From an uncultured Clostridia bacterium (lineage in GTDB: Bacteria > Bacillota > Clostridia > Christensenellales > UBA1242), in assembly GCA_944377485.1 (NCBI GenBank), contig CALWFB010000004.1, forward strand, positions 1 through 64,000: 64,000 nucleotides of DNA, read 5' to 3'. The position numbers and the translations under genes are program-made. Positions 1-17,036 of the stretch are shown here, in pieces. Under the pieces are notes generated by a model, which was not told the origin of the DNA, did not search any database, and saw only the letters and a list, made by a program, of their open reading frames with translations. Position 1 is the first letter of the stretch, and each line of letters begins with the position of its first letter.

Positions 1-330
1 CTATATTATCGTTTTTTTGACCAGCAAAAAAACTCCTTTTTCAGACAGTCATCTCTCTTTTATGAGGGGACAATCTGGCTTTTCCCCTCATTACTCCCCT
101 TTTGTAAGTTGTGGTTTCATATGCGACTTGTCCTATATTATCGTTTTTTTGACCAGCAAAAAAACTCCTTTTTCAGACAGTCATCTCTCTTTTATGAGGG
201 GACAATCTGACTTTTCCCCTCATTACTCCCCTTTTGTAAGTTGTGATTTAATATACAACTTGTCCTTTATTATCGTTTTTTTGACCAGCAAAAAAACTCT
301 TTTTTCGAACAGTTATCTCTCTTTTATAAG
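1..330. repeat. 132-bp tandem repeat, about 2.5 copies, cut by the left window edge
   Basis: Copies begin at 1, 133 and 265, exactly 132 bp apart; the third decays near 330. Each full copy holds an inverted repeat ATGAGGGGA/TCCCCTCAT (62-70 with 83-91, and the equivalent in copy 2). Because 132 is a multiple of three, a plus-strand frame stays open across all copies, but the differences between copies are mostly amino-acid-changing, so it is probably not coding. On the minus strand each full copy has a 16-codon ORF behind a GGGGAG site (41-91 and 173-223). Function unknown. The array abuts the silent surface-protein cassette. Confidence 0.85.
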
Positions 331-432: not shown

Positions 433-511
433 TTATAATGGCGGTGGTGATGGTCGCTATGCTCGCTTTCGGTGGCTCTTATGCTTACTTTACTGCTACC
501 GCTACTGCTAG
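433..511 (+). repeat. Left arm of a 79-bp perfect inverted repeat
   Basis: Positions 433-511 match the reverse complement of 1804-1882 at every base. The arm encodes the hydrophobic core and cleavage region of a SipW-type signal peptide (MAVVMVAMLAFGG, then SYAYFTATATA). Identity stops abruptly on both sides, while the two gene bodies inside the repeats differ widely. That is the expected footprint of a recombination crossover site. Confidence 0.95.
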
Positions 512-1097
512 CTCTGGTACAGCAAAGACAGGTTATGTTCATTTAACATCAAATGACGCTTTTACTTTTACTAAAACAAATGTAATGCCAGGAGACGAAT
601 TGTTGGCTGCTGGTGCTGCAACATTAGAAGTAGACACAACTGATGACGCAGGTAATTACGTCGCCGTTCAATTTGTTATTACAGCTGTTAAAGCCGATGG
701 AACACCAATTGATGCTGGTACTTTGAAAACGTATGGAATAAGTGCAGATAGTATTATTGCTGCGTCAGACACTGGTTGGAAAGCCGCTGGCGGAAGTTAT
801 ACAGGAATGTATATTTGGGGAAGTGCTGAGGGTACACCAGTAGCAGTATTACCTGATGGTGGTACCACAAAAACTTTAACAGTTAACGCAACTGCTTTTA
901 CATTATCAACAACTGTTGAAGACAATTGGGACCAAGACGATTTTGAAACAGCTGAAGACGATTATACAAGTGAAAATGGATTAATGGGTGCAACTATTAC
1001 TTTCCAATTAAAAGCTGCATCAATACAGGCTTCTAATTTGTCAGATAGTGCTACAATTTTGCAACAATTAAATACATTATTAACTAGTATTAACTAA
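438..1097 (+). CDS. TasA/camelysin-like surface protein, silent 5'-truncated cassette
   Basis: The 219-residue reading frame is homologous to the gene at 1278-1931, sharing blocks such as TKTNVMPGD, GNYVA, VEDNW/IEDNW and LMGATIT. It begins inside the signal peptide: residues 1-24 are the hydrophobic region and YAYFTATA cleavage area typical of SipW-processed TasA/CalY (camelysin) proteins. The basic n-region present in the other copy is missing. In frame there is a stop at 417-419, no other start codon before 438 and no Shine-Dalgarno site, so the gene is probably not translated in this orientation. The body is intact and ends in a good terminator, which argues for a stored cassette rather than decay. 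Confidence 0.8.
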   Translation: MAVVMVAMLAFGGSYAYFTATATASSGTAKTGYVHLTSNDAFTFTKTNVMPGDELLAAGAATLEVDTTDDAGNYVAVQFVITAVKADGTPIDAGTLKTYGISADSIIAASDTGWKAAGGSYTGMYIWGSAEGTPVAVLPDGGTTKTLTVNATAFTLSTTVEDNWDQDDFETAEDDYTSENGLMGATITFQLKAASIQASNLSDSATILQQLNTLLTSIN

Positions 1098-1101
1098 TAA
1101 A

Positions 1102-1126
1102 AAACCGAGATTACTCGGTTTTTTTA
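1102..1126 (+). terminator. Intrinsic terminator of the left cassette
   Basis: AAACCGAG/CTCGGTTT stem followed by a T-run, 5 nt after the stop codon. It would travel with the cassette on inversion. Confidence 0.85.
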
Positions 1127-1250
1127 TAAAATGAATAAAGATTAATTTCTTATTTCTCTATATTTAAATAAAGTAAAGCAAAATATTTTTGCTTTACTTA
1201 TAATTAAATATATAGTGACAACAACATTGTTATTTAGAATTTTAATAAAT

Positions 1251-1276
1251 AAAAAACTCGCTAATGCGAGTTTTTT
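1251..1276 (-). terminator. Intrinsic terminator of the right surface-protein gene
   Basis: AACTCGC/GCGAGTT stem flanked by A and T runs, just past the stop codon at 1278 when read on the minus strand. Confidence 0.85.
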
Positions 1277-1277
1277 G

Positions 1278-1931
1278 TTATGCAAATAATGCTACTAATT
1301 GGTCAACAGCATCTGTCGCACTAAGATTAGAAGCTTGGATTGATTTTGCTTGCATTGTAATAGTAATAGTTGCTCCCATCAATTTTTCATCACTACTAGT
1401 TGAACCTTGTGTCCAGTTATCTTCAATGTCTTTTGACAAGGTGAAAGCACTTGCATTTATGGTTATATCTCCATTTTTTTTAGCAACACAAGTGTCAGCT
1501 CCTGAACCATAAATATATATATTTTCAGTGCCAGAAGCATACCAACCTTCTCCAGTTCCTGCTAATATACTATCCGCATTCAAACCTAATGTGGTGACAT
1601 CTGCAATAGGTGAACCTTCGGAATCTTGTGCAGTAATAATAAATTTAATTGCAACATAGTTTCCAGCTGCATCGGTTGTATCAACTGTTAGTTTTGCTGC
1701 TCCTGCTGCTATTAATTGATCACCAGGCATAACATTAGTTTTTGTAAATTGAAATGTCTCGTCTGAATTCAATTTTACATAACCGGTAGTAGCAGTTCCT
1801 GTTCTAGCAGTAGCGGTAGCAGTAAAGTAAGCATAAGAGCCACCGAAAGCGAGCATAGCGACCATCACCACCGCCATTATAATGATGGCAAAGGTTGATT
1901 TAGACATTTTTCTTTTCTTTGTTTTTGTCAT
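1278..1931 (-). CDS. TasA/camelysin-like surface or fibre protein with SipW-type signal peptide (expressed copy)
   Basis: A 217-residue protein. Residues 1-12 are a basic n-region (MTKTKKRKMSK), followed by a hydrophobic stretch to about residue 32 and the SYAYFTATATA cleavage area typical of SipW-dependent TasA/CalY precursors. The mature part is rich in Thr, Ala, Gly and Asp and low in Lys, as in secreted beta-rich fibre subunits. It starts at an ATG 6 nt after GGGG (1931). It has a consensus promoter at 2155-2183 and a hairpin-chain leader, so it is probably strongly expressed. Its first 26 shared codons are nucleotide-identical to the convergent cassette at 438-1097, while the bodies are only about half identical by eye. 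No SipW peptidase gene is in the window. Confidence 0.85.
   Translation of the reverse strand: MTKTKKRKMSKSTFAIIIMAVVMVAMLAFGGSYAYFTATATARTGTATTGYVKLNSDETFQFTKTNVMPGDQLIAAGAAKLTVDTTDAAGNYVAIKFIITAQDSEGSPIADVTTLGLNADSILAGTGEGWYASGTENIYIYGSGADTCVAKKNGDITINASAFTLSKDIEDNWTQGSTSSDEKLMGATITITMQAKSIQASNLSATDAVDQLVALFA
1804..1882 (-). repeat. Right arm of the 79-bp perfect inverted repeat
   Basis: Reverse complement identical to 433-511. It lies inside the signal-peptide coding region of the expressed gene, after codons for MTKTKKRKMSKSTFAI, so a crossover here keeps the start site and n-region and exchanges everything downstream. Confidence 0.95.
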
Positions 1932-2148
1932 TTTTTACCCCTTTTATAAATTTTAATGGTTTCGACTAACCATTGTCCATACGGACTGATTTCATTCTAT
2001 GTACAAATTTGCAAACAAAATGAAATCTATTTCGAATGAATGACATGCATTTATCAATTCATTCGGTGTTTGGAATACCAAACAAATTTGCAAATTTATT
2101 TGTGAGTTTTCACTCATTAAATATCCTACATCGACATCGGATATTTAT
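1932..2148 (-). promoter_or_regulatory. 5' leader made of eight consecutive hairpins
   Basis: Inverted repeats occupy nearly the whole predicted leader: 1955-1974 (7 bp), 1975-1986 (4 bp), 1988-2027 (9 bp, GATTTCATT), 2033-2065 (9 bp, CGAATGAAT), 2067-2084 (7 bp, TGTTTGG), 2084-2097 (palindrome AAATTTGCAAATTT), 2103-2116 (5 bp) and 2118-2147 (9 bp, TAAATATCC). The last sits at the predicted RNA 5' end. No T-run follows any stem, so they are not terminators. A stability element or a protein-binding leader is the likeliest role. Confidence 0.75.
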
Positions 2149-2154
2149 AATTCA

Positions 2155-2183
2155 ATTCTAAAATATTAAAATATATAAGTCAA
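2155..2183 (-). promoter_or_regulatory. Promoter of the expressed TasA-like gene
   Basis: TTGACT (2183-2178), 17-bp spacer, TAGAAT (2160-2155). The predicted transcription start near 2148 lies at the outer edge of the first leader hairpin. Confidence 0.75.
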
Positions 2184-16685: not shown

Positions 16686-17036
16686 GGGGATGAATTAGTT
16701 TCGACTGATATAAACCTAAATTATACGCACGTCGTGTGGTGGCACGTTAAATACACAATTCGTTAACGACGAATAAAAATAAACGCAAACGAAAATAAAT
16801 TAGCTTACGCTGCTTAGCGTGGCCGTCAGTTTAGTGGTACCGATACATTAAAACCTGGCGTCAAATATCGGTGAACGTCATTGTGTATTTCCTTGTGCAC
16901 AGTGATGACAAAAAAGGATAGCATTTATTCAGTGTCAATGTTAGTGAATATTTGTGAATATAGTCATTGACTAAACGTGTAGTGTATGATTTATATTTAT
17001 GTTAGGACACGAGTGCAACTCTCGTCATCTCCACCA
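16686..17036 (+). ncRNA. ssrA: tmRNA (transfer-messenger RNA)
   Basis: tmRNA rescues stalled ribosomes and adds a degradation tag. The 5' end GGGGATGA pairs with the 3' TCATCTCC before the encoded ACCA, giving the tRNA-like acceptor stem; the conserved TTTCGAC element follows at 16699. The tag frame appears to resume at GCA 16785 and reads ANENKLAYAA then TAG (16815-16817). The tag ends YAA instead of the common LAA. Total length 351 nt is typical. Its partner smpB is 2.2 kb downstream on the opposite strand. Confidence 0.95.

Follow-up and report, generated by a model that had tools for sequence, protein, structure and literature searches.

A probable two-state inversion switch for a SipW-type, TasA/camelysin-like secreted protein in an uncultured Clostridia bacterium

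A locus near the end of a contig from an uncultured Clostridia bacterium is very likely a two-state inversion switch that exchanges the secreted part, or body, of a TasA/camelysin-like protein with a SipW-type signal peptide, so that cells can probably flip a DNA segment to change which version of the protein they wear. The analysed stretch (hereafter the window) comprises the first 64 kb of contig C4 from a 1.02-Mb metagenome-assembled genome (98% complete). Its sequence relatives are uncultured Clostridia, one of which is Candidatus Onthoplasma faecigallinarum (Christensenellales); Onthoplasma, of the family UBA1242, is a reduced-genome lineage from the guts of farm animals (PMC12306168). 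The switch is supported by the anatomy of the locus, the reading frame maintained across it, its presence in eight congeners, the concerted evolution of its repeat arms and the intact, constrained state of its silent bodies, and also by an assembly that forks at the locus in one relative. In the mechanism that we propose, a fixed promoter, ribosome-binding site and n-region, all lying beyond position 1882, would serve whichever of two opposing bodies is connected to them at the signal-peptide codons; each body has its own terminator. Recombination between the identical signal-peptide arms would flip the 1.45-kb segment. The product would then carry the other body behind an unchanged signal peptide and leave the cell through the SipW route. 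We infer present-day flipping in this population, the variation between cells that would result from it, and the function of the proteins.

The initial annotation of this DNA had proposed a perfect inverted repeat around two convergent, diverged gene bodies, and this description holds (Table 1). The left arm is identical to the reverse complement of the right arm at 79/79 bases, and the proteins encoded by the two bodies are 56% identical beyond the signal peptide, whose hydrophobic core is encoded by the repeat. Elsewhere in the window, perfect inverted repeats with a loop of >200 bp reach at most 18 bp, and Markov shuffles give 16-18 bp, on which grounds a chance origin of the 79-bp repeat was rejected. 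Also as annotated, expression signals are confined to the right gene, which has an AAGGGG Shine-Dalgarno sequence, an ATG and, outside the repeat, a lysine-rich n-region (MTKTKKRKMSKSTFAII), together with promoter-like sites recognised by consensus match. The left body opens inside the repeat, within the signal peptide and downstream of an in-frame stop, and has neither a start codon outside the repeat nor a Shine-Dalgarno sequence. The locus has a single expression site outside the segment and a silent alternative inside it. When the segment is inverted in silico the frame is kept, as had been predicted, and a full-length hybrid of 237 aa with the left body results.

Table 1. Features of the switch locus and its surroundings (window coordinates).
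Feature	Position	Strand	Basis or remark
132-bp tandem repeats of strong hairpins	1..330	+	lie between silent body and the co-directional gene upstream (contig C21)
Predicted invertible segment, 1450 bp including arms	433..1882	.	perfect inverted repeat; in-frame hybrids after in-silico inversion; same layout in 7 other congeners
Left arm, 79-bp inverted repeat, signal-peptide codons (IMAVVMVAMLAFGGSYAYFTATATA)	433..511	+	
Silent body, open frame without start signals	438..1097	+	in-frame TAG at 417-419; TIGR04088 over cut-off
Terminator-like hairpin 3' of silent body, inside segment	1099..1126	+	sequence
Intrinsic terminator of expressed body, inside segment	1251..1276	-	
Expressed gene, 217 aa, SipW-type signal peptide, TasA/camelysin-like	1278..1931	-	ATG at 1929-1931
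Right arm, 79-bp inverted repeat, signal-peptide codons of expressed gene	1804..1882	-	
Fixed start codon and n-region, outside invertible segment	1883..1931	-	
Shine-Dalgarno AAGGGG, 6 nt before ATG	1938..1943	-	sequence
Promoter-like site TGGACA-18-TAAAAT, outside segment	1950..1979	-	consensus match only
Second promoter-like site	2155..2183	-	consensus match only

A comparison of related genomes, suggested at the outset, recovered the same locus in other species. Related proteins are present in 23 of the 34 same-genus genomes (Onthoplasma-like, Christensenellales), and the convergent pair with its repeat in 8 of the 34, this genome (G000) counted. Among these eight carriers the arms measure 64-79 bp and are perfect or nearly so; in every carrier one arm is accompanied by a Shine-Dalgarno sequence, a start codon and an n-region while the other is not, and the motif (A)AAGGGG lies upstream of the expressed start (8/8). 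Gene order is kept in the genomes examined and runs mnmA, a 381-aa gene, the expressed gene, the silent body where there is one, hairpins and finally a co-directional ORF. Within the window the left flank of the locus in this genome amounts to 432 bp, the window start being the end of contig C4, and the co-directional ORF beyond the hairpins sits on the left neighbour, contig C21, which has one 77-mer in common with the tandem repeats at window positions 125-201. Congeners with a single gene have the same neighbours and no silent cassette; one of them, G016, is the nearest relative of this genome, which we count against the switch reading. The same pattern was found in this genome alone among 396 genomes of the order, in which its own genus is scarcely sampled, the A1 profile, run on 88 family genomes, detected no closely spaced convergent pair beyond the genus, and a pattern search of IMG/VR gave no match.

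The arms evolve in concert within each genome while the bodies that they adjoin do not. Among the first 60 arm positions, 17 vary between the eight carriers, and at these sites the two arms of a genome agree in 135 of 136 comparisons. Across all positions compared, within-genome agreement is 479/480; shuffled pairings average 431.5, and the true pairing is the best of the 40,320 possible. The homogenised stretch covers 54-79 bp and has a ragged inner edge. In this genome the bodies have diverged to a dS of about 1.7 and the adjoining arms are identical, and in several carriers the bodies have almost no DNA in common outside the arm. Given arms that are concerted within genomes, exchange between them must have recurred. 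An excess of GC3 in the arm was considered as a sign of biased gene conversion and did not reach significance (p 0.07).

Inactivating changes of the left body in relatives, which the initial annotation had named as evidence that would speak against a switch, were not seen. Silent bodies are open in all eight carriers (192-221 codons), and the silent orthologues of G001 and G017 have a dN/dS of 0.24 over 172 codons, a value implying that these two are at times expressed. Body trees group the silent body of G018 with the expressed bodies of G001, G000, G016 and G014 (type A). The expressed body of G018 groups with the expressed bodies of G011, G013, G015 and G032, and a sister relationship between the G018 bodies is rejected (AU p 1e-6). 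Replacement of a body by transfer could account for this placement as an alternative to flipping. In the sister species G017 (L050) and G001 (L054) the silent bodies are orthologous and the expressed bodies unrelated, which suggests rapid replacement of the expressed bodies through transfer. These two species carry the spacer that separates the bodies in opposite orientations (about 9950-10225 in L050, about 1184-1496 in L054; 260 bp, 80%, E 1e-59), the inverted stretch having its boundaries at palindromic terminators rather than at the signal-peptide arms and the silent bodies lying on the same side, so that a second, smaller inversion seems to have occurred at the terminators; we count this observation against the switch. 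Use of the central spacer as a marker of flips mostly failed, because the spacer is palindromic.

Indirect evidence that both orientations occur in one population comes from the assembly of G014. There, one contig stops at the outer boundary of the silent arm and another opens with the same 77-mer; contigs C32 and C6 have exactly this one 77-mer in common, which consists of 11 bp of silent body and the 66-bp arm and ends where the silent and promoter flanks diverge. With an assembler k of 77, a value inferred from the overlap length, the 66-bp repeat alone cannot give such a fork and a second orientation can, which points to both states among the G014 reads. The assembly of the present genome says nothing on orientation, because its 79-bp arm is longer than 77. 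Along with the concerted arms and the type A body, silent in one species but expressed in four others, the fork lends support to the phase-switch layout first put forward from the window.

Two further readings deny that the segment flips as a unit. The silent body might only supply sequence for gene conversion or for infrequent cassette swaps, and the G017/G001 pair, with a common silent body and unrelated expressed ones, does indicate that bodies are frequently replaced. Conversion would nevertheless have to proceed without a second anchor in those carriers whose bodies share nearly no DNA outside the arm, whereas inversion needs the arms only; the silent bodies are moreover constrained as if expressed, and the fork in G014 also speaks against a donor role, which we therefore regard as unlikely. 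It is far less probable still that the locus is a recent inverted duplication or an assembly artefact, the left copy being a decaying pseudogene. That copy lacks a start and lies near a contig end, as such a reading would have it, but the same structure with different bodies is found in eight separately assembled genomes, the bodies are anciently diverged beside identical arms, and frame damage is absent. The pseudogene or artefact reading was accordingly rejected as contradicted by the comparative data on the eight carriers.

The inversion itself is probably driven by homologous recombination of the RecA type. Two observations favour this: the homogenised stretch is 54-79 bp long and its inner edge is ragged, and the G017/G001 spacer has also been inverted, apparently via short palindromic terminators. 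Site-specific inversion, by an XerS-like recombinase as the main candidate or by another enzyme acting in trans on a core inside the arm, as HvsR does on vsa, would differ in the catalyst alone and is a credible possibility, if short of an even one. The outer edge of the repeat, constant to within 1 bp at (T)TATAATGG in 8/8 carriers, is sharp enough to keep an enzyme possible, and conservation of signal-peptide DNA is 0.886 in carriers against 0.811 in non-carriers at equal species distance. Against an enzyme of this kind, the homogenised stretch exceeds the need of a short core, no strict core other than TATAATGG is common to the carriers, and tyrosine recombinases are found in nearly all congeners, carriers or not.

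The recombinase content of the genomes bears on the same question. Among the ORFs and syntenic genes inspected around the locus no recombinase gene was noticed, and thus no linked recombinase of the vsa/HvsR type, which counts against the switch. This genome has a PF00589 match on contig C3 and PF00239 matches on C2 and C18; its one tyrosine recombinase (351 aa) has XerS as best match, an XerS-like assignment that covers this genome's enzyme only and agrees with a site-specific mechanism. Large serine recombinase pieces (Ccr/XisF-like) lie at two contig ends, C2:6-152 (L058) and C18:1-1455 (L057), and may be one gene split by assembly. A dedicated invertase was sought in the carriers: G018 lacks the serine recombinase domain PF00239 and G003 has a single PF00589 gene, which leaves a tyrosine recombinase or general homologous recombination as the only means that could serve every carrier. 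A more tentative extension of the homologous mechanism, which we consider possible rather than likely, is that the conserved signal-peptide arm is a sequence to which bodies from a genus-wide pool can dock; recombination there would both flip resident bodies and import new ones from other species, with no dedicated recombinase. If true, this would provide a reduced-genome gut bacterium with a fast-changing surface.

Both window proteins exceed the NCBIfam cut-off of the SipW-type signal peptide model TIGR04088, in agreement with their original description as SipW-type secreted proteins, and the camelysin cut-off (PF12389) is passed by the right protein only, in its N-terminal part only. Each of the two models is matched by 20 of 21 aligned family members at E<=0.01. 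The full-length TasA model NF046066 matches 1 of these 21 members and neither window protein, and a PDB sequence search gave no match. For an AlphaFold2 model (pLDDT 71), both programs used rank TasA first among solved structures, but weakly (VIA Z 6.0, rmsd 4.5 over 139 residues; Foldseek E 0.07). The label 'SipW-dependent, TasA/camelysin-like' is fair in view of the signal peptide type, the N-terminal camelysin hit and the weak, top-ranked fold match, and the protein might be a fibre-former. TasA and CalY (camelysin) resemble the present proteins in their SipW-type signal peptide and PF12389 N-terminal match, TasA also being the best, if weak, fold match; they differ in that no full-length family match is found here. 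A candidate SipW-like signal peptidase of 203 aa is encoded on contig C1 (TIGR02228, 49.2 bits against a cut-off of 51.85).

Inversion that swaps surface genes is already known, as in the vsa, slpA/slpB and Ureaplasma systems (PMC3047005, PMC2268961, PMC7858073); what is new here is the protein family, the lineage and the lack of a linked recombinase. The vsa locus of Mycoplasma pulmonis works in the way proposed for the present switch, but is a multi-gene lipoprotein family with hvsR in its vicinity, whereas here there are two bodies of a SipW-type protein and no recombinase was seen nearby. In Ureaplasma parvum, inverted repeats within coding sequence lead to alternating expression or chimeric genes at mba/UU376 and UU172/UU171 (PMC3047005). 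The present repeats likewise lie within coding sequence, while those of Ureaplasma are shorter (21 nt at mba), belong to unrelated membrane proteins and have been proposed to undergo site-specific recombination. In Lactobacillus acidophilus, also a Bacillota gut bacterium, expressed and silent secreted-protein genes, slpA and slpB, are swapped via chromosomal inversion (PMC7858073). That inversion, as proposed here, trades an expressed for a silent secreted-protein gene, but it concerns S-layer proteins with another class of signal peptide and a larger segment. The slpA/slpB invertible segment is about 6 kb.

A literature search with few subscription papers and no bioRxiv preprints turned up no report of phase variation for TasA, CalY, camelysin or a SipW substrate, and no such switch for the UBA1242/Onthoplasma lineage. 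The locus would place a TasA/camelysin-like SipW substrate, from a family so far studied as a matrix component, under phase-variable control. A two-body switch with concerted arms in eight species suggests selection for surface variation, whether by host, phage or partner, and the missing linked invertase bears on short homologies as drivers of programmed inversion.

Several structured elements adjoin the locus. Hairpin repeats similar to the 132-bp type are found next to it in G018, G015 and G011, and tandem hairpin repeats occur in congener loci L049 (10217-10429), L061 (10921-11100) and L062 (8743-9073); in this genome the assembly break of C4 falls in such repeats, at the 77-mer common with C21. 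In five carriers (L020, L022, L011, L018, L019) a hairpin stem of varied sequence directly abuts the silent arm, with no base in between, and might act as an insulator or as an aid to recombination. Hairpins at this position are rarer in shuffles for about four of the eight carriers, are only weakly better than shuffles in two of the five carriers having one, and are absent from this genome. An Rfam search matched no family to the switch locus; elsewhere in the window, a tmRNA gene lies at 16686-17036 (RF00023, 143.5 bits).
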